DNA of 60,000 nucleotides from Strigamia acuminata (taxonomy: Eukaryota > Arthropoda > Chilopoda > Geophilomorpha > Linotaeniidae), in assembly GCA_949358305.1 (NCBI GenBank), contig CASHSZ010000052.1, positions 64,001 through 124,000 on the forward strand, given 5' to 3'. Positions 4,342-49,264 of this stretch are shown one piece after another; the stretch's first letter is position 1; each line of letters opens with the position of its first letter. The notes under the pieces were generated by a model. The model searched no databases and was not told the origin of the DNA. It worked only from the letters and a program-made list of their open reading frames with translations. Made by a program: the position numbers and the translations under genes.

Positions 4342-4363
4342 TGTTGCGTTCTTGCTCGCAACA
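4342..4363 (-). repeat. Hairpin terminus of element (TGTTGCG-N8-CGCAACA)
   Basis: This is a 7-bp perfect inverted repeat with an 8-nt spacer, directly abutting satellite. The minus-strand reading matches the termini at 40384, 54633 and 55519 apart from the spacer bases. Confidence 0.75.
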
Positions 4364-9053: not shown

Positions 9054-9689
9054 TCACGGTTTCGGCTCGTCATCGGACGATGGCTGCTGCTGAGAGGGGT
9101 CTTGCGGCTCCTCTTCAGTCTCAGTTGCAACCGCTGCGGGTCTTGCTGGGGCTGGCGACGTTCTCGCCGCCTCCAGCACAGACCGTATCGATGGCGGTGG
9201 GGGTATCGGTTGCCCGTCTCCCGCTTCCACCGCCTCCACCGCTCCTGCCGTAGCTGATGGCGACTGGGGGGGTAGCTGAGGCACCTCCTCCGTCGCCGCC
9301 GTCTTGACTGGGGCCAAGGCACGTCGCGCCGCCGCTTCTTCCCTCGACGCCGCCACGGTTTGAGCAGTGCGGGACTTCTTCCCCTTCCCCTTCTGCTTGC
9401 GAGCATCGTGGGTTGATTCGATTGGATCCCAGACGTCGGGGCTAAATTGGTCGGGATAACCCTTCCGTCTATGCACCCGTTTCATCACCACCTCTTCGTA
9501 CGTAGGCGGGGGTGGCGGTGAGTGTGCCGCCAACTCTGGTGGCATCACGATAGGTACAGGCTCGTTGGACGCCGGTACGAACATCCGTTGGTGACCGTAG
9601 TTATTGGTCAACCTCGGGAGCCCGGCCAGCGTCTCCACGTAGCCACGGCAGATTGCCGGGTCGAAATCCGCATGGTCCGCCCCCACCGT
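9054..9689 (-). pseudogene. Downstream frame of gypsy-like element, part 3 (after amber stop)
   Basis: This 211-codon open segment continues, in the same frame, the segment that ends at the TAG at 9692-9690. It is proline-, alanine- and lysine-rich. It contains PPPPPTYEEV near residue 60, which includes a PPxY motif of the kind that binds WW domains of NEDD4-type ligases, and a basic cluster (RKQKGKGKKSR) that could be a nuclear signal. The C-terminal half is low-complexity and acidic. I do not recognise the family. The first Met (9686) lies two codons after the stop, so it could be a separate small protein, a readthrough extension or the tail of a decayed gene. Confidence 0.5.
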
Positions 9690-11011
9690 CTACTCCAGCG
9701 TCCAACTTTGGACCACGAACGGGGATGGTAGGTGGAGATACCATGCGTTCATGGCAGTGCCCACCGCCCACGCGACGATGCGCACCGTCTCGAACCACCT
9801 GATTCTCCTCGCTGCGGCCGATGCGACAGGGGGGATGTTGAGGATTATCCACATCCTCTGTCGGATCAGTGCGACAGCCCTCGTCGTCCTGATGTCACTC
9901 CCGGCCGCGTCCACAAAGCGCAGGTGAAGTTCTCTCCACCGCTTAGCTTCGGCGACCCAGAGCGCCACCACCTGAGCGTTCGCATGCTTGAGGCGCGGGA
10001 CTGCCGTCAGTACAAGTGCCGTGCAGACCACCGGAGCACCAGGCGGTAGGTCGGCGACTTCGAGCGGAACCTGGCCCTCGGCAGGTTCCAAGAACTCCGC
10101 TCCTTTGTGCTGTCCAGAGGGGTGTGGGTCCTGGGAAGGTCCTTCACCTCCTCCGGCCGCTTCTACTCCTGCGCTGACCATCTCGGGGTCGCCGCACCGC
10201 AACAGCTGTGCTTCGAGAGACAAACCCTCCAGCACCGACAATTGCAGCACATCGTCCTCCGAAACAGACAACTCCATCATCTCGTCATCTGGTGCTGGCA
10301 TCAGGGATTGCACCATCGGTAGTTCGGCGCAAGCGCCGTCCTGCCTCTGGGAAACAATACACTCTTCCCGCGGGGTAGATGGCTCCGACCGTCCCGCGAG
10401 ATTCATGAGGCTACCCCAAGTGCGATGGGGCAGTCCTCCCGTCCCGTCGAACTGCGCCACGGGAATTCCGAGTGCGAGTGAAGCGCAAGCGACCGCCTGC
10501 TCACTACAGCCGGCTTCCTCCGTGGGCATCTCGACCACCTGTTCGCCAGACACTCCGGGAAGGTCCAGAGCAAGGGACACTGCCGGTTCAGCCTGTACCT
10601 CGTCTCTGACCACTTCCAACTGCTGTGTGGGTTCCGGCGTACCGTCCGCCACGGGGAGAGTGACAACCATCGGAACAGCCACAACACCCGGTTCGCTGGT
10701 ACCGGATCCACACGATCGCTGTGCGACCGGCAGTACGGCAGCAGCTTCAGCCTCGGCCACCGCTTGCCTCGCCGCCTCGGCGGACCGTGCCTTCCTCGCA
10801 TTGTCCTTGATACGACGACGCAGCAGCTTCCCTGCGGACTCGATCTGAACCGCAGTTGCGCGCGGGTAGGACGCTCGCCACTCCGCCAACGAGGTCTCTA
10901 GCCGTGCGGTCATCTCTTCCGTCCACTTCGACGGCGCTGGCTCTTGCTTCTGGCGCTTCGGGTTCGGCTGGGCTGGGGCCTCTGCCGAAGCCGCCCGCCC
11001 CGCCTGAACCC
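9690..11011 (-). pseudogene. Downstream frame of gypsy-like element, part 2 (unrecognised protein)
   Basis: An open segment of about 438 codons from the copia A insertion point (11011) to a TAG at 9692-9690. It begins with a basic, proline/alanine-rich stretch, then a tryptophan-containing helical segment (KWTEEMTARLETSLAEW) that faintly recalls Myb-like folds. A long acidic low-complexity middle follows. The C-terminal part is more ordered, with several tryptophans and a hydrophobic stretch (VRIVAWAVGTAMNAWYL). The position after pol is where envelope or accessory frames lie in some gypsy relatives, but no signal peptide or clear envelope feature is visible. No function is assigned. Its reading frame matches the flank across the copia insertion. 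Confidence 0.5.
11007..11011. other. Target-site duplication AACCC of copia A, left copy
   Basis: AACCC before the left LTR matches AACCC at 18032-18036 after the right LTR. Five base pairs is usual for copia integrase. Confidence 0.9.
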
Positions 11012-11488
11012 TAAAGCGATTTCCTGGCCAAAACATCGGTTAGAAAGGAGTTGACGAGTGTCTAAACAGGTGCGCGACACCGACATGCGTGCGCCATGTT
11101 TAATATCACATAAAAGTGTACACGCTTCGAGGCTAACAACTGCACTCGGAAAAATAGGATAAATCATTGTTGGATTTCAATGATTTGTCCTTTACATTAT
11201 AAAATAAAAGCAATGACATTCATAATCGATAACTAAGCAATAATAACAATACAGGACTCGCTCTTTTGAGCAGACGATGTTATCAGCGCATGCTGCTAAA
11301 TGGAAACGTTCAACCGCGGTACAGAACCAGCATTAATAAAAATCGAGATCGATTGAACGCGACATCGAGACATTAAATAGCAGCACATTCATTACACATA
11401 TCCGGAAAGTGTGTAATGTAAATATTCACAAACTATACAATATGGCGACAAACAACCAAACACACAATATTTCCACCACAACTCAATA
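11012..11488 (-). repeat. 3' LTR of copia A
   Basis: 477 bp; no difference from 17555-18031 was seen in a line-by-line comparison. It contains AATCGATA (11224-11231, DRE-like), a 9-bp-arm inverted repeat CATTACACA/TGTGTAATG (11390-11418) with CCGGAA in the loop, and AATATGGCGAC (11439-11449, YY1-like). Confidence 0.95.
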
Positions 11489-11505: not shown

Positions 11506-14500
11506 TTATTTGCGCCTTACAAATAAATGCTCACACAAGGTGTTAAGTCTGGGCTTGGGTAACCATTTGGTCATCACATCGGCGACATTCAGGGCCCCTG
11601 GAATATGCTTAATAGCAAACGTTCCGCGCTCAAACCAGTCCCTGAGGAAATGAAGCTTTACGTCGATATGTTTATTCGCCCTATTCTCTATTCGGTTTTT
11701 GGCGTATTGTATCGCGGGCATACTGTCCGCGTACACGCATGGGGTGTTCCGATTGATGCTGAACATGATGTCGGCATCGTAAAGCCTCTCTAGCCATATA
11801 ATCTCCTTTACGCCATCGACCACGGCCAGAAATTCACTCTCCATGATCGATAACGCAGTCATTGACTGCTTATGGCAGTTCCACATGATCGGAACGCCAC
11901 CCAAATAGACTATGTGACCCCCGAAGCTTCTCCTTTTGTCTGCATCGAGGGCAAACGACGCGTCGGTATACACAGTTAGATTATCATTTCGGCAATTGGA
12001 AAGATTAATCATATAATCCGACGTATTTGCCAGATATCGCAAAATTTGCAATAACATACTAATGTGACGCGTCGAATGTTTCTCATTGTATTGTGAGAGG
12101 ACAATGACCGAGAACAGGATGTCTGGCCTTGTCCTGCTCGCCAAGAACAAGAGACTTCCCACTAAGTTGTGATAGGGGAAAGTGGAATCAACCCGCTCCT
12201 TTTCCGTCACGCCCTGAATAATCGTTCCTGGCGTCCCAGGTACTCTAATCCGAAGGCATGAGTCGACCCCATACAACTTACAAAGTTTTTCTATGTATGC
12301 CCTTTGATGGATCCTAATTTGGCCCCCAGACCTATCAAAGGCTATGCCTAACAAGAGGGTCACGGGACCCAAATCAACCGTGTCAAAGGATTCCCTAATC
12401 CATCGAACAACGCATTCCTCGACGTAGTCATCCTTGGAGAAGAGAACTATGTCGTCCACGTAAAAGATAAGAATTGCGTCGTTGTCTAACGCATAAACAC
12501 AGTTAAGACCCAACAAGGGCACAAATCCCAGTTGGAGTAGACGGTCGTGGAGGGCTTGGTACCACATCCGTCCACTCTGATGTAGTCCATATAATGACTT
12601 CAACAGCATCCAACACTTATGTTGGTTTTCGGCTGTTCTGTAGCCCTTGGGAATCTCCATGAATTGGACCTTATCAAGGTCCCCGTACAAGTACGCGGCC
12701 TTGATGTCAAGGTGGACATCTCTCCAACCTTTCAGTATCACCAAGGTACAGAAAAACACTATAACGAGGACGAAATTGACTACGGGGGAAAATACCTCCG
12801 TAAAGTCAATGCCCGGCCTCTGTTTGAAGCCTTGTGCTACCAAGCGAGCCCGGTAGCGCGCGACTGCACCCGACTGGTCCCTTTTCATTTTATAAATCCA
12901 TTTTGATCCCAAAAGCAACTCTCCTTCGGGCTTATCAATTTCTTTATAGACAGTTCGATCGTCGAAGATATCTGTCTCTTCTTTCATCGCCTTTTCCCAG
13001 TCCCGTTTGTTGGTGTGCCTCATTGCCTCCTCGTAGGTATCAGGCTCTACGGCACAGAAACCGGCAAAAGGGAGTTCGGGTTCTTCACCCTCTAAGGTTT
13101 TGAAGTCAAAAAGATCTGGGTCGTAGTGGTAACCCTCTGCGTCGCACCATCGCGCAACGTCAGTCCGACTTCTAAGTTTGTCTTCATTGGGCGAGAAATA
13201 AACCACATCAATTTTCCCAGCCGTTGCCCCGGCTTTCCGGACAGACTGGACCCGTCTCCACTTAGTCATATCCAGCGGCAGCGACAAAGGATCTTTGACC
13301 TTCTTTCCCTTTTTGCCCGAACCACGACGAGCTTGTATCGTAGGAGGAAGATCAACCTCCTCATCGTCGTCAGGATAAACATTGAAGTAATTCTCGCCAT
13401 CGCCGTTATCCCCCTTCGCCCCACCAATTTCTTCAACTGGATTATCCCCAGCACCAGCATCCCCAACCAAGTCACCTTCAACAGTTTCTATCGCAGGCTG
13501 TTGTATCGCTTGTTTTACAAGCGGCCTCAATTCAGGTCTGAAAACAGGCTTTGGGGTTGTGGGTAAAGGAGGCTTCTCCTTCGGAACCGGGGGTTCAACA
13601 GGGGGCGGAATAGGAGGTGGTAGTGCCTCTTGCACTTCCTCAACAATTTCAGGGATAGGGGCAACGGAATCATCATCATCTCCCTCGGTGTCCGAGGAAG
13701 AATCCCCAAAATGTTTGAATTGGCCACCCTGCGGTTGCTTGATGGGCTGTTGTAGCCGTTTGCCAATCTCATACCAATATGAGTCTTCGAAAATTCGGAC
13801 ATGTTTGGACGCAAAAACTTGATTCCGTACAGGATCCCAAACCCTGTAGCCCCTAGTTGATATTGCGTATCCAATGAGTGCTCCCGCCCAAGCCCTTCCT
13901 TCCAGTTTGCCCTTTCTGACCTGGGACGGGATATGTACAAATGTCTTCGACCCAATACACCTGATGTGTCGCAAAGACAATTTCTTGCCGAAAAACACGG
14001 TATAGGGCACTTTTCCTCCAAGCCCTTCATGGGGGAATCGGTTCTTTAAGTAAACTATGGTCGTCGCTAATTCAGCCCAAAGGGGATAGGGGAAATCATT
14101 TTCCAACATTAAAGCTCTGACGCCACCGACAATGGTACGGTTTGCACGTTCTGCAACAGAATTCATTTCCGGGCTATATGTATTCGTACGAATACATTTC
14201 AAACCAATTTTGGATGCATAATCATCCCAATTCCGCGAAATAAATTCTCCTCCATTATCAGTTTTAATGCATTTCACTTTCCGTGATGTCGTTCTTTCGA
14301 CTTCCGTCAACCAACGTTTAAAATGGCCCAAAACTTCCCCTTTGGTCTTCATCGTTATGATCCACATATAACGTGAATAATCATCAACCAATATAAAGTA
14401 AAAATTAGCCCCACCCAAGGAAGTAGCTTGTGATGCCCCCCAAACATCCATGTGCACTAAATCTAATACTCCCTTAGTGGAAATGGTAATTATCGGGGGA

Positions 14501-16377
14501 AAACTCGCCCTAGTGCTCTTAGCACGGGCACATGCGTCACAAGTGGATAATTCTTTGTTAGACAAATTGATCCCAAAAACGTCCTCGGATTCGGTTAATT
14601 TAATAATGCCTTTAGCATTATGGTGGCCCATTCTGGAATGCCACGTGTCCATACTCTGGGATATTTCTTTCTTTCTCATTTTGATCCCAGTATCCCCGCT
14701 TTTGTTAACTTTCGCAGTCGCATTAGCTTCGGGAACAATAGCAGGAGGTGTCTGAACCTCATTCACTGTTTTCTGTAAATTAATCGCCGCAGGCGCATTC
14801 GCTTTGGTTGGCTCGCTTACTTGCGTACTCAAATTAGATGCGGATTTTCCCATATCCGGCTTACAGAAACTTTTTAGTAAAGCTGACTTAAAATCTAAAA
14901 TGGTTAGTAGCGGTTGTACAAATTTTTCATCCTTCACGGATGATTTGATTAAATCGAGGACAGCAGCTGTATCCTGTTGCGCAGTTAATGCAGCTGTGTT
15001 TACAGAATTAACCTCGACCCGGCAGTTGACTTTGTACAGCCTGTCGCTAGTCCGAACTGCCGAAATCAATGGTTCCTCGATTTTATCTTTGAAAATACTC
15101 ATCTTCCCATCTTTAACAATTGTGCACAACCCAGCCTCATCGGTGCGCCCGAGCGAAATAAGGTTTTTCCGAAAATTCGGTGCGAAGAATACATTCGTCA
15201 AAGTTATTTTCCTCGTTCTTTGTCCATAGAGCGAAGTGAGGACGATGTTGCCCACACCTTCAATCTTCGATTTTCCTTCTCCTTGTAGAACGCTGAAGTT
15301 AGACAACGGTTTGAAGTTTGAAAACCAATTCCGGTTGAAGGAAAAGTGGTCGGTCGCTCCCGTGTCCACGTACCACTGTGAATCGTAGTTTCCGTGCGAC
15401 ACAAGAGATAAGGGCACTGTGGGCTTCTCTTCCGACACCGCAGAATACAAAGTGTAGGGCTCATCTGTATAGGGGTCCAGTTGTGTGAGATTTGCTCTCT
15501 GTGGACCCCCTCTGCCTCGTCCTTTGCCACGGGTGCCTCCACGATTCAATTGGGCTGGCGAGCCAGCGCTGGCGGGGAAAGTCCCTTGCTGTTTCGGCGG
15601 CGATGGGCACTCCCTGGCGAAGTGTCCCGACCCACCGCAAGTAAAACATGTTCCACGCGAAGTTCCGGGGGAATTTGGGGTTTTTCCACGAGGTTTCCAT
15701 TTCCCTTTAGTATAGAAAGCGGTAGTATTGTCTGCCAATACAGGTGGGACGCCAAATTCATTGGTCTGTTCATAAAGGCGATTGTACTCGCCAAGTAAAC
15801 GTTCTTTAACGTTTTTCGCTGTGAATTCCGTATCCGACCAGTGATACGCGGTCTGTTTCACAGCCTCGTATTGTGGGGGCAGAAGATCTAAATATTGGAA
15901 TGCCTGGAATTCATCGGTGACCTCAATTTTAACGTCCTTCAGTTCGACGATTTTGCGGTCGACCCGCCCGGTGAAAACTAGCATTTCCTCATTATCTCGA
16001 AGTTTCATGTTGAGGAATTCACGTCGCAACCGAGCACGACGTGCCCTCGTCGTCGGTTGATAAGCGTCCTTTAGGGCTTCCCAAACTTTCGCAGCGGTGG
16101 GGCAGGCAACAGCTATCACTTGCTGCGGCTCAGCGCAACTCATGCAGATAGTGGACATTGCCTTGTCCTCTCGAGCGTTAAACTCTCGCTTCTCTTTTGC
16201 AGTGGCTGTTGCAGCCAGTGGTGGCTCAGAGCCACTAACATGTCCCCAAACGCCGTTGTATTTGAGCAATAACTGGACCTGCACGGACCAGGTGGCATAG
16301 TTCGTGCCATCGAGCTTTTTAATATCCTTGTAATCGTCGTGCTTTGAAGCCATCACGACGACACCAGGAAAATGCAC
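11506..16377 (-). CDS. Copia A Gag-Pol polyprotein
   Basis: One open frame of 1,623 codons; Met9 at 16353 (MASKHDDYKD) is the likelier start. Numbered from the first Met: copia-type Gag at about 20-230, zinc knuckle CX2CX4HX4C at 244-257, protease DTGAT at 338-342. The integrase has a HHCC zinc site (H580, H585, C613, C616) and a DD35E triad D644, D707, E743. An acidic, proline-rich linker spans about 890-1030, the MBD-like segment about 1032-1096, reverse transcriptase from about 1108 with YVDD at 1306-1309, and RNase H has D1471, E1512 and D1550. Every catalytic motif checked is present, so the protein is probably functional. It would assemble particles, copy the RNA and integrate cDNA. No frameshift separates gag from pol. 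Confidence 0.97.
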   Translation of the reverse strand: MHFPGVVVMASKHDDYKDIKKLDGTNYATWSVQVQLLLKYNGVWGHVSGSEPPLAATATAKEKREFNAREDKAMSTICMSCAEPQQVIAVACPTAAKVWEALKDAYQPTTRARRARLRREFLNMKLRDNEEMLVFTGRVDRKIVELKDVKIEVTDEFQAFQYLDLLPPQYEAVKQTAYHWSDTEFTAKNVKERLLGEYNRLYEQTNEFGVPPVLADNTTAFYTKGKWKPRGKTPNSPGTSRGTCFTCGGSGHFARECPSPPKQQGTFPASAGSPAQLNRGGTRGKGRGRGGPQRANLTQLDPYTDEPYTLYSAVSEEKPTVPLSLVSHGNYDSQWYVDTGATDHFSFNRNWFSNFKPLSNFSVLQGEGKSKIEGVGNIVLTSLYGQRTRKITLTNVFFAPNFRKNLISLGRTDEAGLCTIVKDGKMSIFKDKIEEPLISAVRTSDRLYKVNCRVEVNSVNTAALTAQQDTAAVLDLIKSSVKDEKFVQPLLTILDFKSALLKSFCKPDMGKSASNLSTQVSEPTKANAPAAINLQKTVNEVQTPPAIVPEANATAKVNKSGDTGIKMRKKEISQSMDTWHSRMGHHNAKGIIKLTESEDVFGINLSNKELSTCDACARAKSTRASFPPIITISTKGVLDLVHMDVWGASQATSLGGANFYFILVDDYSRYMWIITMKTKGEVLGHFKRWLTEVERTTSRKVKCIKTDNGGEFISRNWDDYASKIGLKCIRTNTYSPEMNSVAERANRTIVGGVRALMLENDFPYPLWAELATTIVYLKNRFPHEGLGGKVPYTVFFGKKLSLRHIRCIGSKTFVHIPSQVRKGKLEGRAWAGALIGYAISTRGYRVWDPVRNQVFASKHVRIFEDSYWYEIGKRLQQPIKQPQGGQFKHFGDSSSDTEGDDDDSVAPIPEIVEEVQEALPPPIPPPVEPPVPKEKPPLPTTPKPVFRPELRPLVKQAIQQPAIETVEGDLVGDAGAGDNPVEEIGGAKGDNGDGENYFNVYPDDDEEVDLPPTIQARRGSGKKGKKVKDPLSLPLDMTKWRRVQSVRKAGATAGKIDVVYFSPNEDKLRSRTDVARWCDAEGYHYDPDLFDFKTLEGEEPELPFAGFCAVEPDTYEEAMRHTNKRDWEKAMKEETDIFDDRTVYKEIDKPEGELLLGSKWIYKMKRDQSGAVARYRARLVAQGFKQRPGIDFTEVFSPVVNFVLVIVFFCTLVILKGWRDVHLDIKAAYLYGDLDKVQFMEIPKGYRTAENQHKCWMLLKSLYGLHQSGRMWYQALHDRLLQLGFVPLLGLNCVYALDNDAILIFYVDDIVLFSKDDYVEECVVRWIRESFDTVDLGPVTLLLGIAFDRSGGQIRIHQRAYIEKLCKLYGVDSCLRIRVPGTPGTIIQGVTEKERVDSTFPYHNLVGSLLFLASRTRPDILFSVIVLSQYNEKHSTRHISMLLQILRYLANTSDYMINLSNCRNDNLTVYTDASFALDADKRRSFGGHIVYLGGVPIMWNCHKQSMTALSIMESEFLAVVDGVKEIIWLERLYDADIMFSINRNTPCVYADSMPAIQYAKNRIENRANKHIDVKLHFLRDWFERGTFAIKHIPGALNVADVMTKWLPKPRLNTLCEHLFVRRK
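13090..13284 (-). other. MBD-like (methyl-CpG-binding) domain in copia A polyprotein
   Basis: Residues about 1032-1096 read like an MBD: a leading W-R pair (W1040, R1041), RKAG-x-x-AGK (1047-1054), IDVVYFSP, then LRSR-x-D-V (R1069), and a closing YDPDLFDF. In MeCP2 the equivalent stretches are RKSG-x-SAGK, YDVY, FRSK and a terminal FDF; R111, D121 and R133 of MeCP2 contact methyl-CpG and correspond to R1047, D1057 and R1069. The tyrosine equivalent to MeCP2 Y123 is valine here. The segment lies after an unstructured linker and just before reverse transcriptase, so after cleavage it would probably remain on integrase. The assignment is from pattern recognition, not a profile search. Confidence 0.8.
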
Positions 16378-17534: not shown

Positions 17535-17552
17535 AACCATCCTCTGCTACCA
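17535..17552 (-). promoter_or_regulatory. Primer-binding site of copia A (initiator tRNA-Met 3' end)
   Basis: The minus-strand reading TGGTAGCAGAGGATGGTT is complementary to the last 18 nt of animal initiator tRNA-Met including CCA. It lies 2 nt from the 5' LTR. Copia B has the identical 18-mer. Confidence 0.93.
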
Positions 17553-17554: not shown

Positions 17555-18031
17555 TAAAGCGATTTCCTGGCCAAAACATCGGTTAGAAAGGAGTTGACGA
17601 GTGTCTAAACAGGTGCGCGACACCGACATGCGTGCGCCATGTTTAATATCACATAAAAGTGTACACGCTTCGAGGCTAACAACTGCACTCGGAAAAATAG
17701 GATAAATCATTGTTGGATTTCAATGATTTGTCCTTTACATTATAAAATAAAAGCAATGACATTCATAATCGATAACTAAGCAATAATAACAATACAGGAC
17801 TCGCTCTTTTGAGCAGACGATGTTATCAGCGCATGCTGCTAAATGGAAACGTTCAACCGCGGTACAGAACCAGCATTAATAAAAATCGAGATCGATTGAA
17901 CGCGACATCGAGACATTAAATAGCAGCACATTCATTACACATATCCGGAAAGTGTGTAATGTAAATATTCACAAACTATACAATATGGCGACAAACAACC
18001 AAACACACAATATTTCCACCACAACTCAATA
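17555..18031 (-). repeat. 5' LTR of copia A
   Basis: 477 bp, apparently identical to 11012-11488 and followed by the AACCC duplication at 18032-18036. Sense-strand termini are TATTG and CTTTA. Confidence 0.95.
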
Positions 18032-27267: not shown

Positions 27268-28794
27268 CAACTGTGATGAGATCAAAAGTCTATTCTCCCA
27301 AATCATTGCTTGGATGTTGCTAAAACTTACATTGAAGGCTTCTACTAAGGTTTAAATACTATTTCTGAACGTTCAGAAACATTGGTCTTGTGGTGTTTGT
27401 GCTAAGTCAACTGTGATGAGATCAAAAGTCGATTCTCCCAAATCATCGGTTGGATGTTTCTAAAACTTACATTGGAGCCTTCTACTAAGGTTTAAACACT
27501 ATTTCTGAACATTCAGAGACATTGGTCTTGTGGTGTTTGTGCTAAGTCAACTGTGATGAGATCAAAAGTCTATTCTCCCAAATCATTGGTTGGATGTTTC
27601 TAAAACTTACATTGGAGCCTTCTACTAAGGTTTAAACACTATTTCTGAACATTCAGAGACATTGGTCTTGTGGTGTTTGTGCTAAGTCAACTGTGATGAG
27701 ATCAAAAGTCTATTCTCCCAAATCATTGGTTGGATGTTTCTAAAACTTACATTGGAGCCTTCTACTAAGGTTTAAACACTATTTCTGAACATTCAGAGAC
27801 ATTAATCTTGTGGTGTTTGTGCTAAGTCAACTGCGATGTGAAATAAGCTCAAAATTTTTTTTTCAAATTTTATTGCTTGGGTGTTGCTAAAACTTATATT
27901 GAAGGCTTCTACTAAGGTTTAAACACTATTTCTGAACATTCAGAGACATTGGTCTTGTGGTGTTTGTGCTAAGTCAACTGCGATGTGAAATGAGCTCAAA
28001 ATTTTTTTTTCAAAATTTAATGCTTGGGTGTTGCTAAAACTTATATTGAAGGCTTCTACTAAGGTTTAAACACTATTTCTGAACATTCAGAGACATTGGT
28101 CTTGTGGTGTTTGTGCTAAGTCAACTGTGATGAGATCAAAAGTCTATTCTCCCAAATCATCGGTTGGATGTTTCTAAAACTTACATTGGAGCCTTCTACT
28201 AAGGTTTAAACACTATTTCTGAACATTCAGAGACATTGGACTTGTGGTGTTTGTGCTAAGTCAACTGTGATGAGATCAAAAGTCTATTCAACCAAATCAT
28301 CGCTTGGATGTTGCTAAAACTTACATTGAAGGCTTCTACTAAGGTTTAAACACTATTTCTGAACATTCAGAGACATTGGTCTTGTGGTGTTTGTGCTAAG
28401 TCAACTGTGATGAGATCAAAAGTCTATTCTCCCAAATCATCGGTTGGATGTTTCTAAAACTTACATTGGAGCCTTCTACTAAGGTTTAAACACTATTTCT
28501 GAACATTCAGAGACATTGGTCTTGTGGTGTTTGTGCTAAGTCAACTGTGATGAGATCAAAAGTCTATTCTCCCAAATCATTGGTTGGATGTTTCTAAAAC
28601 TTACATTGGAGCCTTCTACTAAGGTTTAAACACTATTTCTGAACATTCAGAGACATTGGTCTTGTGGTGTTTGTGCTAAGTCAACTGTGATGAGATCAAA
28701 AGTCTATTCTCCCAAATCATTGGTTGGATGTTTCTAAAACTTACATTGGAGCCTTCTACTAAGGTTTAAACACTATTTCTGAACATTCAGAGAC

Positions 28795-29788
28795 ATTAAT
28801 CTTGTGGTGTTTGTGCTAAGTCAACTGCGATGTGAAATAAGCTCAAAATTTTTTTTTCAAATTTTATTGCTTGGGTGTTGCTAAAACTTATATTGAAGGC
28901 TTCTACTAAGGTTTAAACACTATTTCTGAACATTCAGAGACATTGGTCTTGTGGTGTTTGTGCTAAGTCAACTGCGATGTGAAATGAGCTCAAAATTTTT
29001 TTTTCAAAATTTAATGCTTGGGTGTTGCTAAAACTTATATTGAAGGCTTCTACTAAGGTTTAAACACTATTTCTGAACATTCAGAGACATTGGTCTTGTG
29101 GTGTTTGTGCTAAGTCAACTGTGATGAGATCAAAAGTCTATTCTCCCAAATCATCGGTTGGATGTTTCTAAAACTTACATTGGAGCCTTCTACTAAGGTT
29201 TAAACACTATTTCTGAACATTCAGAGACATTGGACTTGTGGTGTTTGTGCTAAGTCAACTGTGATGAGATCAAAAGTCTATTCTCCCAAATCATTGCTTG
29301 GATGTTGCTAAAACTTACATTGAAGGCTTCTACTAAGGTTTAAATACTATTTCTGAACGTTCAGAGACATTGGTCTTGTGGTGTTTGTGCTAAGTCAACT
29401 GTGATGAGATCAAAAGTCGATTCTCCCAAATCATCGGTTGGATGTTTCTAAAACTTACATTGGAGCCTTCTACTAAGGTTTAAACACTATTTCTGAACAT
29501 TCAGAGACATTGGTCTTGTGGTGTTTGTGCTAAGTCAACTGTGATGAGATCAAAAGTCTATTCTCCCAAATCATTGGTTGGATGTTTCTAAAACTTACAT
29601 TGGAGCCTTCTACTAAGGTTTAAACACTATTTCTGAACATTCAGAGACATTGGTCTTGTGGTGTTTGTGCTAAGTCAACTGTGATGAGATCAAAAGTCTA
29701 TTCTCCCAAATCATTGGTTGGATGTTTCTAAAACTTACATTGGAGCCTTCTACTAAGGTTTAAACACTATTTCTGAACATTCAGAGAC
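28795..29788 (+). repeat. Canonical 994-bp higher-order unit (example)
   Basis: Seven monomers in the canonical order, two of 147 bp followed by five of 140 bp. The same arrangement recurs at 37020-38013 and, in array 3, at 58330-59323. Confidence 0.93.
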
Positions 29789-32777
29789 ATTAATCTTGTG
29801 GTGTTTGTGCTAAGTCAACTGCGATGTGAAATAAGCTCAAAATTTTTTTTTCAAATTTTATTGCTTGGGTGTTGCTAAAACTTATATTGAAGGCTTCTAC
29901 TAAGGTTTAAACACTATTTCTGAACATTCAGAGACATTGGTCTTGTGGTGTTTGTGCTAAGTCAACTGCGATGTGAAATGAGCTCAAAATTTTTTTTTCA
30001 AAATTTAATGCTTGGGTGTTGCTAAAACTTATATTGAAGGCTTCTACTAAGGTTTAAACACTATTTCTGAACATTCAGAGACATTGGTCTTGTGGTGTTT
30101 GTGCTAAGTCAACTGTGATGAGATCAAAAGTCTATTCTCCCAAATCATCGGTTGGATGTTTCTAAAACTTACATTGGAGCCTTCTACTAAGGTTTAAACA
30201 CTATTTCTGAACATTCAGAGACATTGGACTTGTGGTGTTTGTGCTAAGTCAACTGTGATGAGATCAAAAGTCTATTCAACCAAATCATCGCTTGGATGTT
30301 GCTAAAACTTACATTGAAGGCTTCTACTAAGGTTTAAACACTATTTCTGAACATTCAGAGACATTGGTCTTGTGGTGTTTGTGCTAAGTCAACTGTGATG
30401 AGATCAAAAGTCTATTCTCCCAAATCATCGGTTGGATGTTTCTAAAACTTACATTGGAGCCTTCTACTAAGGTTTAAACACTATTTCTGAACATTCAGAG
30501 ACATTGGTCTTGTGGTGTTTGTGCTAAGTCAACTGTGATGAGATCAAAAGTCTATTCAACCAAATCATTGGTTGGATGTTTCTAAAACTTACATTGGAGC
30601 CTTCTACTAAGGTTTAAACACTATTTCTGAACATTCAGAGACATTGGTCTTGTGGTGTTTGTGCTAAGTCAACTGTGATGAGATCAAAAGTCTATTCTCC
30701 CAAATCATTGGTTGGATGTTTCTAAAACTTACATTGGAGCCTTCTACTAAGGTTTAAACACTATTTCTGAACATTCAGAGACATTAATCTTGTGGTGTTT
30801 GTGCTAAGTCAACTGCGATGTGAAATAAGCTCAAAATTTTTTTTTCAAATTTTATTGCTTGGGTGTTGCTAAAACTTATATTGAAGGCTTCTACTAAGGT
30901 TTAAACACTATTTCTGAACATTCAGAGACATTGGTCTTGTGGTGTTTGTGCTAAGTCAACTGTGATGAGATCAAAAGTCTATTCTCCCAAATCATTGGTT
31001 GGATGTTTCTAAAACTTACATTGGAGCCTTCTACTAAGGTTTAAACACTATTTCTGAACATTCAGAGACATTGGTCTTGTGGTGTTTGTGCTAAGTCAAC
31101 TGTGATGAGATCAAAAGTCTATTCTTCCAAATCATTGGTTGGATGTTTCTAAAACTTACATTGGAGCCTTCTACTAAGGTTTAAACACTATTTCTGAACA
31201 TTCAGAGACATTAATCTTGTGGTGTTTGTGCTAAGTCAACTGCGATGTGAAATAAGCTCAAAATTTTTTTTTCAAATTTTATTGCTTGGGTGTTGCTAAA
31301 ACTTATATTGAAGGCTTCTACTAAGGTTTAAACACTATTTCTGAACATTCAGAGACATTGGTCTTGTGGTGTTTGTGCTAAGTCAACTGCGATGTGAAAT
31401 GAGCTCAAAATTTTTTTTTCAAAATTTAATGCTTGGGTGTTGCTAAAACTTATATTGAAGGCTTCTACTAAGGTTTAAACACTATTTCTGAACATTCAGA
31501 GACATTGGTCTTGTGGTGTTTGTGCTAAGTCAACTGTGATGAGATCAAAAGTCTATTCTCCCAAATCATTGCTTGGATGTTGCTAAAACTTACATTGAAG
31601 GCTTCTACTAAGGTTTAAATACTATTTCTGAACGTTCAGAGACATTGGTCTTGTGGTGTTTGTGCTAAGTCAACTGTGATGAGATCAAAAGTCGATTCTC
31701 CCAAATCATCGGTTGGATGTTTCTAAAACTTACATTGGAGCCTTCTACTAAGGTTTAAACACTATTTCTGAACATTCAGAGACATTGGTCTTGTGGTGTT
31801 TGTGCTAAGTCAACTGTGATGAGATCAAAAGTCTATTCTCCCAAATCATTGGTTGGATGTTTCTAAAACTTACATTGGAGCCTTCTACTAAGGTTTAAAC
31901 ACTATTTCTGAACATTCAGAGACATTGGTCTTGTGGTGTTTGTGCTAAGTCAACTGTGATGAGATCAAAAGTCTATTCTCCCAAATCATTGGTTGGATGT
32001 TTCTAAAACTTACATTGGAGCCTTCTACTAAGGTTTAAACACTATTTCTGAACATTCAGAGACATTAATCTTGTGGTGTTTGTGCTAAGTCAACTGCGAT
32101 GTGAAATAAGCTCAAAATTTTTTTTTCAAATTTTATTGCTTGGGTGTTGCTAAAACTTATATTGAAGGCTTCTACTAAGGTTTAAACACTATTTCTGAAC
32201 ATTCAGAGACATTGGTCTTGTGGTGTTTGTGCTAAGTCAACTGCAATGTGAAATGAGCTCAAAATTTTTTTTTCAAAATTTAATGCTTGGGTGTTGCTAA
32301 AACTTATATTGAAGGCTTCTACTAAGGTTTAAACACTATTTCTGAACATTCAGAGACATTGGTCTTGTGGTGTTTGTGCTAAGTCAACTGTGATGAGATC
32401 AAAAGTCTATTCTCCCAAATCATCGGTTGGATGTTTCTAAAACTTACATTGGAGCCTTCTACTAAGGTTTAAACACTATTTCTGAACATTCAGAGACATT
32501 GGACTTGTGGTGTTTGTGCTAAGTCAACTGTGATGAGATCAAAAGTCTATTCTCCCAAATCATTGGTTGGATGTTTCTAAAACTTACATTGGAGCCTTCT
32601 ACTAAGGTTTAAACACTATTTCTGAACATTCAGAGACATTGGTCTTGTGGTGTTTGTGCTAAGTCAACTGTGATGAGATCAAAAGTCTATTCTCCCAAAT
32701 CATTGGTTGGATGTTTCTAAAACTTACATTGGAGCCTTCTACTAAGGTTTAAACACTATTTCTGAACATTCAGAGAC

Positions 32778-34191
32778 ATTAATCTTGTGGTGTTTGTGCT
32801 AAGTCAACTGCGATGTGAAATAAGCTCAAAATTTTTTTTTCAAATTTTATTGCTTGGGTGTTGCTAAAACTTATATTGAAGGCTTCTACTAAGGTTTAAA
32901 CACTATTTCTGAACATTCAGAGACATTGGTCTTGTGGTGTTTGTGCTAAGTCAACTGCGATGTGAAATGAGCTCAAAATTTTTTTTTCAAAATTTAATGC
33001 TTGGGTGTTGCTAAAACTTATATTGAAGGCTTCTACTAAGGTTTAAACACTATTTCTGAACATTCAGAGACATTGGTCTTGTGGTGTTTGTGCTAAGTCA
33101 ACTGTGATGAGATCAAAAGTCTATTCTCCCAAATCATCGGTTGGATGTTTCTAAAACTTACATTGGAGCCTTCTACTAAGGTTTAAACACTATTTCTGAA
33201 CATTCAGAGACATTGGACTTGTGGTGTTTGTGCTAAGTCAACTGTGATGAGATCAAAAGTCTATTCTCCCAAATCATTGCTTGGATGTTGCTAAAACTTA
33301 CATTGAAGGCTTCTACTAAGGTTTAAATACTATTTCTGAACGTTCAGAGACATTGGTCTTGTGGTGTTTGTGCTAAGTCAACTGTGATGAGATCAAAAGT
33401 CGATTCTCCCAAATCATCGGTTGGATGTTTCTAAAACTTACATTGGAGCCTTCTACTAAGGTTTAAACACTATTTCTGAACATTCAGAGACATTGGTCTT
33501 GTGGTGTTTGTGCTAAGTCAACTGTGATGAGATCAAAAGTCTATTCTCCCAAATCATTGGTTGGATGTTTCTAAAACTTACATTGGAGCCTTCTACTAAG
33601 GTTTAAACACTATTTCTGAACATTCAGAGACATTGGTCTTGTGGTGTTTGTGCTAAGTCAACTGTGATGAGATCAAAAGTCTATTCTCCCAAATCATTGC
33701 TTGGATGTTGCTAAAACTTACATTGAAGGCTTCTACTAAGGTTTAAATACTATTTCTGAACGTTCAGAGACATTGGTCTTGTGGTGTTTGTGCTAAGTCA
33801 ACTGTGATGAGATCAAAAGTCGATTCTCCCAAATCATCGGTTGGATGTTTCTAAAACTTACATTGGAGCCTTCTACTAAGGTTTAAACACTATTTCTGAA
33901 CATTCAGAGACATTGGTCTTGTGGTGTTTGTGCTAAGTCAACTGTGATGAGATCAAAAGTCTATTCTCCCAAATCATTGGTTGGATGTTTCTAAAACTTA
34001 CATTGGAGCCTTCTACTAAGGTTTAAACACTATTTCTGAACATTCAGAGACATTGGTCTTGTGGTGTTTGTGCTAAGTCAACTGTGATGAGATCAAAAGT
34101 CTATTCTCCCAAATCATTGGTTGGATGTTTCTAAAACTTACATTGGAGCCTTCTACTAAGGTTTAAACACTATTTCTGAACATTCAGAGAC
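32778..34191 (+). repeat. Higher-order unit with a duplicated three-monomer block
   Basis: 1,414 bp = 994 + 420. The block of AAATACTATT-type, GTCGATTCTC-type and plain A monomers is present twice in tandem, a visible unequal-exchange product. Confidence 0.88.
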
Positions 34192-37100
34192 ATTAATCTT
34201 GTGGTGTTTGTGCTAAGTCAACTGCGATGTGAAATAAGCTCAAAATTTTTTTTTCAAATTTTATTGCTTGGGTGTTGCTAAAACTTATATTGAAGGCTTC
34301 TACTAAGGTTTAAACACTATTTCTGAACATTCAGAGACATTGGTCTTGTGGTGTTTGTGCTAAGTCAACTGCAATGTGAAATGAGCTCAAAATTTTTTTT
34401 TCAAAATTTAATGCTTGGGTGTTGCTAAAACTTATATTGAAGGCTTCTACTAAGGTTTAAACACTATTTCTGAACATTCAGAGACATTGGTCTTGTGGTG
34501 TTTGTGCTAAGTCAACTGTGATGAGATCAAAAGTCTATTCTCCCAAATCATCGGTTGGATGTTTCTAAAACTTACATTGGAGCCTTCTACTAAGGTTTAA
34601 ACACTATTTCTGAACATTCAGAGACATTGGACTTGTGGTGTTTGTGCTAAGTCAACTGTGATGAGATCAAAAGTCTATTCTCCCAAATCATTGGTTGGAT
34701 GTTTCTAAAACTTACATTGGAGCCTTCTACTAAGGTTTAAACACTATTTCTGAACATTCAGAGACATTGGTCTTGTGGTGTTTGTGCTAAGTCAACTGTG
34801 ATGAGATCAAAAGTCTATTCTCCCAAATCATTGGTTGGATGTTTCTAAAACTTACATTGGAGCCTTCTACTAAGGTTTAAACACTATTTCTGAACATTCA
34901 GAGACATTAATCTTGTGGTGTTTGTGCTAAGTCAACTGCGATGTGAAATGAGCTCAAAATTTTTTTTTCAAAATTTAATGCTTGGGTGTTGCTAAAACTT
35001 ATATTGAAGGCTTCTACTAAGGTTTAAACACTATTTCTGAACATTCAGAGACATTGGTCTTGTGGTGTTTGTGCTAAGTCAACTGTGATGAGATCAAAAG
35101 TCTATTCTCCCAAATCATCGGTTGGATGTTTCTAAAACTTACATTGGAGCCTTCTACTAAGGTTTAAACACTATTTCTGAACATTCAGAGACATTGGACT
35201 TGTGGTGTTTGTGCTAAGTCAACTGTGATGAGATCAAAAGTCTATTCTCCCAAATCATTGCTTGGATGTTGCTAAAACTTACATTGAAGGCTTCTACTAA
35301 GGTTTAAATACTATTTCTGAACGTTCAGAGACATTGGTCTTGTGGTGTTTGTGCTAAGTCAACTGTGATGAGATCAAAAGTCGATTCTCCCAAATCATCG
35401 GTTGGATGTTTCTAAAACTTACATTGGAGCCTTCTACTAAGGTTTAAACACTATTTCTGAACATTCAGAGACATTGGTCTTGTGGTGTTTGTGCTAAGTC
35501 AACTGTGATGAGATCAAAAGTCTATTCTCCCAAATCATTGGTTGGATGTTTCTAAAACTTACATTGGAGCCTTCTACTAAGGTTTAAACACTATTTCTGA
35601 ACATTCAGAGACATTGGTCTTGTGGTGTTTGTGCTAAGTCAACTGTGATGAGATCAAAAGTCTATTCTCCCAAATCATTGGTTGGATGTTTCTAAAACTT
35701 ACATTGGAGCCTTCTACTAAGGTTTAAACACTATTTCTGAACATTCAGAGACATTAATCTTGTGGTGTTTGTGCTAAGTCAACTGTGATGAGATCAAAAG
35801 TCTATTCTCCCAAATCATTGGTTGGATGTTTCTAAAACTTACATTGGAGCCTTCTACTAAGGTTTAAACACTATTTCTGAACATTCAGAGACATTGGACT
35901 TGTGGTGTTTGTGCTAAGTCAACTGTGATGAGATCAAAAGTCTATTCTCCCAAATCATTGGTTGGATGTTTCTAAAACTTACATTGGAGCCTTCTACTAA
36001 GGTTTAAACACTATTTCTGAACATTCAGAGACATTGGTCTTGTGGTGTTTGTGCTAAGTCAACTGTGATGAGATCAAAAGTCTATTCTCCCAAATCATTG
36101 GTTGGATGTTTCTAAAACTTACATTGGAGCCTTCTACTAAGGTTTAAACACTATTTCTGAACATTCAGAGACATTAATCTTGTGGTGTTTGTGCTAAGTC
36201 AACTGCGATGTGAAATGAGCTCAAAATTTTTTTTTCAAAATTTAATGCTTGGGTGTTGCTAAAACTTATATTGAAGGCTTCTACTAAGGTTTAAACACTA
36301 TTTCTGAACATTCAGAGACATTGGTCTTGTGGTGTTTGTGCTAAGTCAACTGTGATGAGATCAAAAGTCTATTCTCCCAAATCATCGGTTGGATGTTTCT
36401 AAAACTTACATTGGAGCCTTCTACTAAGGTTTAAACACTATTTCTGAACATTCAGAGACATTGGACTTGTGGTGTTTGTGCTAAGTCAACTGTGATGAGA
36501 TCAAAAGTCTATTCTCCCAAATCATTGCTTGGATGTTGCTAAAACTTACATTGAAGGCTTCTACTAAGGTTTAAATACTATTTCTGAACGTTCAGAGACA
36601 TTGGTCTTGTGGTGTTTGTGCTAAGTCAACTGTGATGAGATCAAAAGTCGATTCTCCCAAATCATCGGTTGGATGTTTCTAAAACTTACATTGGAGCCTT
36701 CTACTAAGGTTTAAACACTATTTCTGAACATTCAGAGACATTGGTCTTGTGGTGTTTGTGCTAAGTCAACTGTGATGAGATCAAAAGTCTATTCTCCCAA
36801 ATCATTGGTTGGATGTTTCTAAAACTTACATTGGAGCCTTCTACTAAGGTTTAAACACTATTTCTGAACATTCAGAGACATTGGTCTTGTGGTGTTTGTG
36901 CTAAGTCAACTGTGATGAGATCAAAAGTCTATTCTCCCAAATCATTGGTTGGATGTTTCTAAAACTTACATTGGAGCCTTCTACTAAGGTTTAAACACTA
37001 TTTCTGAACATTCAGAGACATTAATCTTGTGGTGTTTGTGCTAAGTCAACTGCGATGTGAAATAAGCTCAAAATTTTTTTTTCAAATTTTATTGCTTGGG

Positions 37101-40100
37101 TGTTGCTAAAACTTATATTGAAGGCTTCTACTAAGGTTTAAACACTATTTCTGAACATTCAGAGACATTGGTCTTGTGGTGTTTGTGCTAAGTCAACTGC
37201 GATGTGAAATGAGCTCAAAATTTTTTTTTCAAAATTTAATGCTTGGGTGTTGCTAAAACTTATATTGAAGGCTTCTACTAAGGTTTAAACACTATTTCTG
37301 AACATTCAGAGACATTGGTCTTGTGGTGTTTGTGCTAAGTCAACTGTGATGAGATCAAAAGTCTATTCTCCCAAATCATCGGTTGGATGTTTCTAAAACT
37401 TACATTGGAGCCTTCTACTAAGGTTTAAACACTATTTCTGAACATTCAGAGACATTGGACTTGTGGTGTTTGTGCTAAGTCAACTGTGATGAGATCAAAA
37501 GTCTATTCTCCCAAATCATTGCTTGGATGTTGCTAAAACTTACATTGAAGGCTTCTACTAAGGTTTAAATACTATTTCTGAACGTTCAGAGACATTGGTC
37601 TTGTGGTGTTTGTGCTAAGTCAACTGTGATGAGATCAAAAGTCGATTCTCCCAAATCATCGGTTGGATGTTTCTAAAACTTACATTGGAGCCTTCTACTA
37701 AGGTTTAAACACTATTTCTGAACATTCAGAGACATTGGTCTTGTGGTGTTTGTGCTAAGTCAACTGTGATGAGATCAAAAGTCTATTCTCCCAAATCATT
37801 GGTTGGATGTTTCTAAAACTTACATTGGAGCCTTCTACTAAGGTTTAAACACTATTTCTGAACATTCAGAGACATTGGTCTTGTGGTGTTTGTGCTAAGT
37901 CAACTGTGATGAGATCAAAAGTCTATTCTCCCAAATCATTGGTTGGATGTTTCTAAAACTTACATTGGAGCCTTCTACTAAGGTTTAAACACTATTTCTG
38001 AACATTCAGAGACATTAATCTTGTGGTGTTTGTGCTAAGTCAACTGCGATGTGAAATAAGCTCAAAATTTTTTTTTCAAATTTTATTGCTTGGGTGTTGC
38101 TAAAACTTATATTGAAGGCTTCTACTAAGGTTTAAACACTATTTCTGAACATTCAGAGACATTGGTCTTGTGGTGTTTGTGCTAAGTCAACTGCGATGTG
38201 AAATGAGCTCAAAATTTTTTTTTCAAAATTTAATGCTTGGGTGTTGCTAAAACTTATATTGAAGGCTTCTACTAAGGTTTAAACACTATTTCTGAACATT
38301 CAGAGACATTGGTCTTGTGGTGTTTGTGCTAAGTCAACTGTGATGAGATCAAAAGTCTATTCTCCCAAATCATCGGTTGGATGTTTCTAAAACTTACATT
38401 GGAGCTTTCTACTAAGGTTTAAACACTATTTCTGAACATTCAGAGACATTGGACTTGTGGTGTTTGTGCTAAGTCAACTGTGATGAGATCAAAAGTCTAT
38501 TCAACCAAATCATCGCTTGGATGTTGCTAAAACTTACATTGAAGGCTTCTACTAAGGTTTAAACACTATTTCTGAACATTCAGAGACATTGGTCTTGTGG
38601 TGTTTGTGCTAAGTCAACTGTGATGAGATCAAAAGTCTATTCTCCCAAATCATCGGTTGGATGTTTCTAAAACTTACATTGGAGCCTTCTACTAAGGTTT
38701 AAACACTATTTCTGAACATTCAGAGACATTGGTCTTTTGGTGTTTGTGCTAAGTCAACTGTGATGAGATTAAAAGTCTATTCTCCCAAATCATCGGTTGG
38801 ATGTTTCTAAAACTTACATTGGAGCCTTCTACTAAGGTTTAAACACTATTTCTGAACATTCAGAGACATTGGTCTTGTGGTGTTTGTGCTAAGTCAACTG
38901 TGATGAGATCAAAAGTCTATTCAACCAAATCATTGGTTGGATGTTTCTAAAACTTACATTGGAGCCTTCTACTAAGGTTTAAACACTATTTCTGAACATT
39001 CAGAGACATTGGTCTTGTGGTGTTTGTGCTAAGTCAACTGTGATGAGATCAAAAGTCTATTCTCCCAAATCATTGGTTGGATGTTTCTAAAACTTACATT
39101 GGAGCCTTCTACTAAGGTTTAAACACTATTTCTGAACATTCAGAGACATTAATCTTGTGGTGTTTGTGCTAAGTCAACTGCGATGTGAAATAAGCTCAAA
39201 ATTTTTTTTTCAAATTTTATTGCTTGGGTGTTGCTAAAACTTATATTGAAGGCTTCTACTAAGGTTTAAACACTATTTCTGAACATTCAGAGACATTGGT
39301 CTTGTGGTGTTTGTGCTAAGTCAACTGTGATGAGATCAAAAGTCTATTCTCCCAAATCATTGGTTGGATGTTTCTAAAACTTACATTGGAGCCTTCTACT
39401 AAGGTTTAAACACTATTTCTGAACATTCAGAGACATTGGTCTTGTGGTGTTTGTGCTAAGTCAACTGTGATGAGATCAAAAGTCTATTCTCCCAAATCAT
39501 TGGTTGGATGTTTCTAAAACTTACATTGGAGCCTTCTACTAAGGTTTAAACACTATTTCTGAACATTCAGAGACATTAATCTTGTGGTGTTTGTGCTAAG
39601 TCAACTGCGATGTGAAATAAGCTCAAAATTTTTTTTTCAAATTTTATTGCTTGGGTGTTGCTAAAACTTATATTGAAGGCTTCTACTAAGGTTTAAACAC
39701 TATTTCTGAACATTCAGAGACATTGGTCTTGTGGTGTTTGTGCTAAGTCAACTGCGATGTGAAATGAGCTCAAAATTTTTTTTTCAAAATTTAATGCTTG
39801 GGTGTTGCTAAAACTTATATTGAAGGCTTCTACTAAGGTTTAAACACTATTTCTGAACATTCAGAGACATTGGTCTTGTGGTGTTTGTGCTAAGTCAACT
39901 GTGATGAGATCAAAAGTCTATTCTCCCAAATCATCGGTTGGATGTTTCTAAAACTTACATTGGAGCCTTCTACTAAGGTTTAAACACTATTTCTGAACAT
40001 TCAGAGACATTGGACTTGTGGTGTTTGTGCTAAGTCAACTGTGATGAGATCAAAAGTCTATTCTCCCAAATCATTGCTTGGATGTTGCTAAAACTTACAT

Positions 40101-40383
40101 TGAAGGCTTCTACTAAGGTTTAAATACTATTTCTGAACGTTCAGAGACATTGGTCTTGTGGTGTTTGTGCTAAGTCAACTGTGATGAGATCAAAAGTCGA
40201 TTCTCCCAAATCATCGGTTGGATGTTTCTAAAACTTACATTGGAGCCTTCTACTAAGGTTTAAACACTATTTCTGAACATTCAGAGACATTGGTCTTGTG
40301 GTGTTTGTGCTAAGTCAACTGTGATGAGATCAAAAGTCTATTCTCCCAAATCATTGGTTGGATGTTTCTAAAACTTACATTGG

Positions 40384-41982: not shown

Positions 41983-42005
41983 TGTTGGTCTATTGGACCG
42001 CCAGT

Positions 42006-42049
42006 TGTGTCGATGTGACATAAAATCTGTGTCGATGTGACGTAAAATC
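42006..42049 (+). promoter_or_regulatory. Tandem 22-bp repeat in copia B LTR
   Basis: Two adjacent copies of TGTGTCGATGTGAC-R-TAAAATC; the second has TGACGTAA, a CRE/ATF-like site, and the first TGACATAA. Both are repeated in the 3' LTR at 48732-48775. Likely an enhancer in U3. Confidence 0.5.
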
Positions 42050-42262
42050 ACATTCTCATTGCCTAATTATCTAATCTCGATGTATTTATCCCGTACTTAT
42101 TTATATCCGATGATATTTGCTTATTTAGATATTTTACATTTGTTTATTACTATTTAACACACAGTATCATGCTGTGTCCAGTGTTTTCTCTTAATTCAAG
42201 CTTTGTTTGATTATGTAATTCGTTTTCACGACACCAGGTGTCGTTAGTATTCTCATCACCTT

Positions 42263-42281
42263 CCAAGATGGCGGCGACCAT
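42263..42281 (+). promoter_or_regulatory. YY1/Pho consensus site in copia B LTR
   Basis: CCAAGATGGCGGCGACCAT contains the full YY1 consensus CAAGATGGCGGC. It lies about 130 bp upstream of a TATA-like TATAAG. Duplicate at 48989-49007 in the 3' LTR. Confidence 0.5.
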
Positions 42282-42394
42282 CGCTTTGGCTCTCGCCCTT
42301 ATGTTTTCACTTTGTAATGACTTCATTTGTAAGTATTTTGGTTTAGTAAACTTATTTTTATGTTTTTAAACACTGCCTGGTTTATTGCACGACA

Positions 42395-42400
42395 TATAAG
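42395..42400 (+). promoter_or_regulatory. TATA-like box in copia B LTR
   Basis: ACATATAAGCGC; transcription would be expected to start about 25-30 bp downstream. Copy in the 3' LTR at 49121-49126. Confidence 0.4.
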
Positions 42401-42540
42401 CGCATTTGCGCGGTCGTTTTATTCGTTTTTCGCTCCCGACGTCGCCCACACGTTCGTACGAGTAGTGCGACGCCTTTGCAACGTTACACTCGAAGTTTCG
42501 AGTGCTTTTTGGTCGTTTTCCTCTGCTACCGACCTACAAT

Positions 42541-48708: not shown

Positions 48709-49264
48709 TGTTGGTCTATTGGACCGCCAGTTGTGTCGATGTGACATAAAATCTGTGTCGATGTGACGTAAAATCACATTCTCATTGCCTAATTATCTAA
48801 TCTCGATGTATTTATCCCGTACTTATTTATATCCGATGATATTTGCTTATTTAGATATTTTACATTTGTTTATTACTATTTAACACACAGTATCATGCTG
48901 TGTCCAGTGTTTTCTCTTAATTCAAGCTTTGTTTGATTATGTAATTCGTTTTCACGACACCAGGTGTCGTTAGTATTCTCATCACCTTCCAAGATGGCGG
49001 CGACCATCGCTTTGGCTCTCGCCCTTATGTTTTCACTTTGTAATGACTTCATTTGTAAGTATTTTGGTTTAGTAAACTTATTTTTATGTTTTTAAACACT
49101 GCCTGGTTTATTGCACGACATATAAGCGCATTTGCGCGGTCGTTTTATTCGTTTTTCGCTCCCGACGTCGCCCACACGTTCGTACGAGTAGTGCGACGCC
49201 TTTGCGACGTTACACTCGAAGTTTCGAGTGCTTTTTGGTCGTTTTCCTCTGCTACCGACCTACA
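48709..49264 (+). repeat. 3' LTR of copia B
   Basis: 556 bp, one difference from the 5' LTR, followed by the AAAAC duplication at 49265-49269. Confidence 0.95.

Follow-up and report, generated by a model that had tools for sequence, protein, structure and literature searches.

In 2019, de Mendoza, Pflueger and Lister (Genome Res 29:1277) announced in their title that a retrotransposon family of arthropods had captured a methyl-CpG-binding domain (MBD), and a passage in PMC7343188 links that work to a recent transposable element (TE) family in Strigamia maritima. Here we analysed a window of 60,000 nucleotides (the whole stretch of DNA under study) from S. acuminata, in which two copia elements, copia A and copia B, carry a predicted MBD; the window lies on a contig outside the chromosome set (C63). 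The elements of the 2019 study reportedly are copia elements of S. maritima, and also of spiders, with the MBD located in Pol. The domain reportedly binds CpG-dense methylated DNA, and young copies reportedly accumulate in CpG-dense regions in S. maritima. The two systems share an MBD in an arthropod retrotransposon and the genus Strigamia; they differ in the host species, and our comparison with the S. maritima elements is one of descriptions. MBD-bearing copias are already known in kind, and S. acuminata adds members from a sister species. The initial annotation knew of no described copia lineage of this kind, an impression that the 2019 report contradicts. With the present data, MBD-copias are on record from a second centipede species, whose assembly reaches chromosome level (qcStrAcum1.1, with a span of 237.5 Mb in 158 scaffolds according to an excerpt of PMC10556566) and in which their insertion bias could be checked against controls from the same superfamily.

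Three further systems resemble these elements in part. The chromodomain of chromoviruses is likewise a chromatin-reading module of the integrase and, in an excerpt of PMC12477314, is held to direct insertion into heterochromatin; it differs in sitting in a Ty3/gypsy gene order, in reading histone methylation and in being an unrelated domain. We rejected copia A as a chromovirus because its integrase precedes the reverse transcriptase (RT), and no chromodomain was matched by Pfam in the four copia A pieces scanned. Retrotransposons of dinoflagellates and charophytes have also captured a DNA-methylation protein, a DNA methyltransferase, but as far as the excerpt of PMC5890265 goes this is a writer of methylation and not a reader, and the elements belong to other classes. 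Finally, LEDGF/p75, a chromatin-binding protein with AT-hooks, holds the HIV-1 integrase on chromatin (PMC11354804, in part); in that account it is a host protein acting in trans and not a part of Pol, unlike the copia MBD.

Copia A consists of the following parts, with Pfam E-values for the domains:

11506..16377, minus strand: Gag-Pol open reading frame (ORF), 1623 aa, without internal stop
15766..16278, minus strand: Gag (Retrotran_gag_2), E 1.9e-29
15601..15654, minus strand: CCHC zinc knuckle, E 3.1e-7
15130..15375, minus strand: Pol polyprotein beta-barrel domain (Pol_BBD; protease region), E 6.1e-20
14515..14661, minus strand: GAG-pre-integrase domain, E 3e-7
14170..14457, minus strand: integrase core (rve), E 1.1e-7, 32.5 bits, marginally missing the cut-off of 32.6
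13774..13992, minus strand: SH3-like domain following the integrase core, E 8.5e-22
13096..13263, minus strand: MBD (PF01429), E 5.4e-12, 45.6 bits, cut-off 21
12238..12951, minus strand: reverse transcriptase (RVT_2), E 9.9e-53
17555..18031, minus strand: 5' LTR, 477 bp, 0/477 mismatches to the 3' LTR
11012..11488, minus strand: 3' LTR, 477 bp, the same as the 5' LTR
11007..11011, no strand: target-site duplication AACCC (5 bp), second copy at 18032-18036
17537..17552, minus strand: primer binding site TGGTAGCAGAGGATGG, read from the sequence and presumably the complement of the initiator-tRNA 3' end

The Pfam matches thus run from gag, CCHC, Pol_BBD and pre-integrase to rve, SH3-like domain, MBD and RVT_2, and the MBD lies C-terminal to the integrase, where the initial annotation had put it. 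Both window elements are assigned to Ty1/copia by a single frame with gag, protease region, integrase and RT, by their LTRs and by a 5-bp duplication; RNase H gave no Pfam match in the pieces of them that were scanned. The LTRs of copia A seem to end in TA...TA, not TG...CA, and those of copia B and the other inspected families differ from A. Next to copia A, at 9054-11036, there are two open frames with a high GC content, one of 210 aa and a longer one of 448 aa, neither of which has a Pfam match. The insertion point of copia A is the upstream end of the 448-aa frame, and the joined empty site keeps this frame open for 142 nt more. Near copia A on the other side (21130-23688) is an 852-aa frame of Ty3/gypsy type with matches to RT and RNase H and a protease match marginally below the cut-off.

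The five motifs on which the MBD reading was originally built (WRR, RKAGATAGK, IDVVYFSP, LRSRTDV and YDPDLFDF) are all present, in that order, in the 1623-aa ORF of copia A. A search of PDB sequences with this region returned MBD2 at the top (6cnp, E 1.2e-8), followed by MBD1, MBD3, MBD4, plant MBD6 and MeCP2, and a profile built from ten representative copia MBDs found MBD2 again (2ky8, E 2.7e-15). PF01429 matched all ten representatives at E-values up to 1; the ten include three closely related subfamilies, A, E1 and F, with about 90% identity. Together with the Pfam score well above the cut-off, these searches identify the stretch between integrase and RT of copia A, at the level of sequence, as a methyl-CpG-binding domain. 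An AlphaFold2 model of the copia A region had a mean pLDDT of 47.5, from an alignment of only two sequences, the window copies.

The second element of the window reads in the opposite direction; the satellite arrays of the window are listed with it:

43459..48501, plus strand: Gag-Pol of copia B (1680 aa), the other copia of the window that carries an MBD
46750..46917, plus strand: divergent MBD-like domain of copia B, PF01429 E 6.1e-4, 19.8 bits, missing the cut-off of 21
41983..42538, plus strand: 5' LTR, 556 bp, 1/556 mismatches to the 3' LTR
48709..49264, plus strand: 3' LTR; the target-site duplication AAAAC flanks the element on both sides
27268..40383, no strand: array of a 140-bp satellite, CpG-depleted (0.5 CpG per 100 bp)
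4362-7750, 54774-55518 and 56731-60000: further arrays of the 140-bp satellite

According to Pfam, the domain order of copia B equals that of copia A. The marginal score of its MBD-like domain, taken alone, is the one point that would suit a coincidental resemblance, with the stretch being an ordinary linker between integrase and RT; nothing in copia A speaks for it. We rejected this reading as extremely improbable because three sequence searches matched most of the domain with E-values between 1e-8 and 1e-15.

Within the MBD, W8, R10, R15, D25, R37 and S38 are invariant across the ten representatives, and we take them to be the equivalents of MeCP2 W104, R106, R111, D121, R133 and S134. The Trp and the counterparts of R111, D121, R133 and S134 stay invariant in an alignment of 21 copia MBDs. 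R111, D121 and R133 are the residues by which MeCP2 contacts methyl-CpG, and the counterparts claimed for them in the initial annotation were found in copia A as in all other representatives. The position of MeCP2 Tyr123 is variable: it is Val in copia A, and in the alignment of the ten it is Tyr in five and Val, Ile or Trp in A, C, D, E1 and F, so that methyl selectivity may differ between families and be weak in some.

The genome encodes a related host domain. An MBD2/3-type gene (C5:5734327-5734576) shows 81% and 60% identity, in two pieces, to the MBD2 of PDB 2ky8. By our reading of the sequence by eye, an intron splits this gene inside the domain. At this locus (L180, C5:5734260-5734640) the gene reads DVFYY, with Phe at the Tyr123 position, which raises the question of which protein reads methylation in the host. 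The copia MBDs share the domain with the host gene but are intron-less and strongly diverged: the aligned parts of eight of them show 37-45% identity to that domain (copia A, 45% over 55 aligned positions). Both features would fit an old, RNA-mediated capture of a host MBD gene. One match of the genome search for the MBD (C3:20309085) lies in a host gene that looks BAZ2-like (L159, C3:20303500-20309800), with a divergent exon resembling an MBD and, by eye, PHD and DDT-type exons; we rejected it as the donor. DNA-methylase domains gave 11 matches at five places in the genome.

Vertebrate MBD3 has Phe at the Tyr123 position and is reported to lack methyl selectivity. With the Phe of the host MBD2/3-type gene and the Val, Ile or Trp of families A, C, D, E1 and F, this could suggest that the copia MBD is a generic DNA- or CpG-binding module, which would produce a CpG bias without reading methylation. 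We consider such a module unlikely, since the Arg, Asp and Arg contacts to methyl-CpG are invariant in ten of ten representatives, Tyr is kept in five of them, and the captured MBD is called functionally active in the title of the 2019 paper (Genome Res 29:1277). We favour a domain that would bind DNA in a methyl-selective manner.

Predicted MBD-bearing copias occur in many copies in S. acuminata, as the initial annotation had invited one to look for. The profile searches of the genome (157 contigs) scored the best 150 candidates each (of 1092 for the MBD, 2633 for RVT_2 and 887 for the host MBD2/3-type domain), so that all copy counts are lower bounds; the 150 MBD candidates were all above the cut-off. 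We took 149 of them as copia, having inspected the sequence at 30 loci and at 12 more. At 25 of the 30 loci the surroundings of the MBD are near-copies of the copia A type or of a second type (C). Three others (L001, L003, L004) have a copia integrase or RT in frame, and L002 and L006 are broken copies that resemble these. When the MBD part was compared with predicted proteins whose length was 0.55-1.75 times that of the query, none of 196 candidates reached E <= 0.001. On C13, a contig of 10.34 Mb taken as the Y chromosome, there are 12 MBD-copias and 4 non-MBD copias among the scored matches.

We examined dN/dS in the MBD of 11 sequences less one that was not recognised (L170) and was left out. 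The five pairs whose dS was below 1 (A-E1, E1-J, F-J, C-G and L003-L004) gave values from 0.04 to 0.10, and more diverged pairs, which are near saturation, went up to 0.38; in close pairs, then, these ratios show purifying selection on the MBD. An RT tree of 12 rows, from which L003 and L001 were left out as their frames cover the RT only partly, puts all seven MBD rows, two of which nearly duplicate others, on one side of a branch with a support of 100/100. The other five rows are non-MBD copias from three families (K1, K2 and K18). B, L004 and the others have no resolved branching order in this tree. The grouping is compatible with a single capture of the MBD, though no proof of it.

We next turn to the insertion sites. 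Copia A and copia B have 5.5-11.1 CpG per 100 bp in their four flanks of 532 bp, and the 140-bp satellite has 0.5-0.6 in the three of the four window arrays that were measured. Genome-wide, we collected 532-bp 5' flanks of 40 MBD-copias (20 from family A, 20 from other families), 34 of which were usable; six insertions (L061, L064, L077, L145, L151 and L154) were dropped as no LTR-edge pattern matched at the expected place, L145 having a variant LTR start. Controls were flanks from four non-MBD copia families (K1-K4; 20 of 20 usable) and 20 random places. The flanks were chosen by family from the best-scoring lists, not randomly, and the random pieces were drawn with a seed from ten contigs. 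Mean CpG density per 100 bp was 6.72 in MBD flanks, 2.70 in non-MBD flanks and 4.91 at random places (MBD vs non-MBD, p 8e-7, AUC 0.91; MBD vs random, p 0.027, AUC 0.68). Against random DNA, the p-value was 0.078 for the CpG observed/expected ratio and 0.18 for GC content. GC outside CpG was 31.9 in MBD flanks, 30.1 in non-MBD flanks and 32.1 in random pieces (MBD vs non-MBD, p 0.059; MBD vs random, p 0.95); within one genome, copias with and without MBD differ strongly in flank CpG and little in other GC. The non-MBD flanks are themselves poorer in CpG than random DNA (p 0.017), so that the contrast between the two groups is partly due to the controls. Insertion into CpG-dense DNA is thus clear relative to non-MBD copias and modest relative to random DNA.

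The family means (MBD vs non-MBD, p 0.019) were 9.4 for C, 7.6 for A, 5.3 for E1, 5.0 for E2, 4.7 for D and 4.1 for F among MBD-copias, and 4.25 for K4, 2.6 for K2, 2.0 for K1 and 1.9 for K3 among the controls. Since D, E1, E2 and F are about at the random level, the CpG excess over random DNA comes mainly from A and C, and one of the four family C flanks is extreme (20.7 CpG per 100 bp). Among the best-scoring matches, 67 of 133 placed MBD-copias lie within 2.5 Mb of a chromosome end (expectation 25%), compared with 19 of 147 placed non-MBD copias (Fisher p 1.2e-11); on non-chromosome contigs there are 16 of 149 and 3 of 150, respectively. In this comparison the 150 RVT_2 matches were counted as non-MBD as a group and not element by element, because copia A (180 bits) and copia B (194 bits) fall below the list minimum of 233 and because no MBD was seen by eye in the inspected linkers, six of which were scanned with Pfam.

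In the place of the MBD, between integrase and RT, non-MBD copias often carry another kind of motif. After grouping them by frame length and score, we found GRP cores in the linker of six of the 11 families (K1, K2, K18, K5, K10 and K13); the core is weak in K7 and absent in K3, K4, K8 and K9. We call these cores AT-hook-like, a presumed assignment based on the AT-hook consensus; Pfam matched no AT-hook in the six linkers scanned. The non-MBD linkers come from loci L031-L060 and L172-L179. Both AT-hook-like families sampled (K1 and K2) insert into AT-rich DNA: their flanks have 33.4% GC, falling to 27.5% in the last 60 bp, compared with 37.7% and 37.8% in K3 and K4 (full flanks: K1+K2 vs K3+K4, p 0.026; K1+K2 vs random, p 0.011; K3+K4 vs random, p 0.17).

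These motifs bear on the possibility that the insertion pattern is unrelated to the MBD, with nesting in young CpG-rich transposons and AT-seeking controls driving the contrast. In its favour, copia B sequence turned up in four of the 17 flanks from family A, the control flanks are CpG-poorer than random, AT-hook-like motifs are present in two of the four families used as controls, and the hook-less K4 is near the random level. We nevertheless find this somewhat unlikely, since the MBD flanks exceed random DNA in CpG at a like GC outside CpG and the hook-less controls K3 and K4 are jointly low in CpG (mean 3.08).

Tethering by the integrase is the best-fitting account of the role of the MBD, which probably steers insertion. 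A copia lineage of this centipede carries in Pol an MBD that is related to MBD1/2/3/4 and MeCP2 and kept by selection, and we think it likely that this domain tethers the integration complex to CpG-dense DNA. A host MBD gene would have been captured long ago by a copia through an intron-less copy, the donor and the route being those suggested above. As the MBD follows the SH3-like domain of the integrase, it may remain at the C-terminus of the mature integrase, although the protein boundaries after processing of the polyprotein can only be presumed. As an extension of the integrase, the MBD would keep this complex attached to CpG-dense and likely methylated DNA, and new copies would land in CpG-rich chromosome regions that are rich in transposons and satellites. 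Among 719 TEs of the congener S. maritima, a fraction of 0.758 belongs to the highly methylated class (in an excerpt of PMC7343188); CpG-dense DNA at TEs, often methylated there, would be the target of the MBD. Of the tether proposed in the initial annotation, the guiding role gains support from the insertion flanks and the chromosomal distribution; the reading of methylation in this role would follow from the presumed selectivity of the domain.

The CpG bias presumably arises at integration and not through later selection, though selection after insertion could yield an equal distribution. Such selection is part of an alternative in which the MBD serves to shield the element from silencing, either by occupying methylated copies or by competing with host MBD2/3 repressor complexes, and in which insertions elsewhere are purged, leaving the CpG-dense, chromosome-end pattern. 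The purifying selection on the MBD cannot tell targeting from such a function, and a host MBD2/3-type gene and DNA-methylase matches are indeed present. It is, however, rather improbable in our view, more so than a generic module: the MBD sits in Pol beside the integrase and not in Gag or in a separate product, the window copies with 0 or 1/556 LTR mismatches are already in CpG-dense patches, and the 100 bp immediately ahead of the sampled MBD-copia insertion points are also high in CpG (7.35 per 100 bp). We therefore retain tethering by the integrase as the preferred account.

On a broader view, the linker between integrase and RT might be an exchangeable slot for readers of DNA composition, with the MBD lineage led to CpG-dense and the AT-hook-like families to AT-rich DNA, so that the genome would be divided between them. 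We offer this tentatively, as an idea that falls a little short of an even chance. As to the MBD, elements of this kind are already known. Among the papers listed by a full-text literature search, at the level of titles and the starts of abstracts, there was no report of AT-hooks in a copia integrase or of such a division, and the word retrotransposon is absent from an AT-hook review. With both MBD and AT-hook-like families in one genome, targeting by integrase-linked readers becomes directly testable, because the PacBio reads of the assembly may carry a methylation signal.

The satellite next to the window copies is abundant in the genome. A 58-base piece of it has 29,137 genome matches with at most two mismatches, about 4 Mb if one match stands for one unit. 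None of the 74 sampled flanks matched the 140-bp satellite. By eye, a family F MBD-copia with the target duplication CTACT lies inside the satellite on C9 (L137-L138, C9:901585-910085). The satellite matches listed lie near two chromosome ends, the right one of C1 and the left one of C4, and MBD-copias occur there too.
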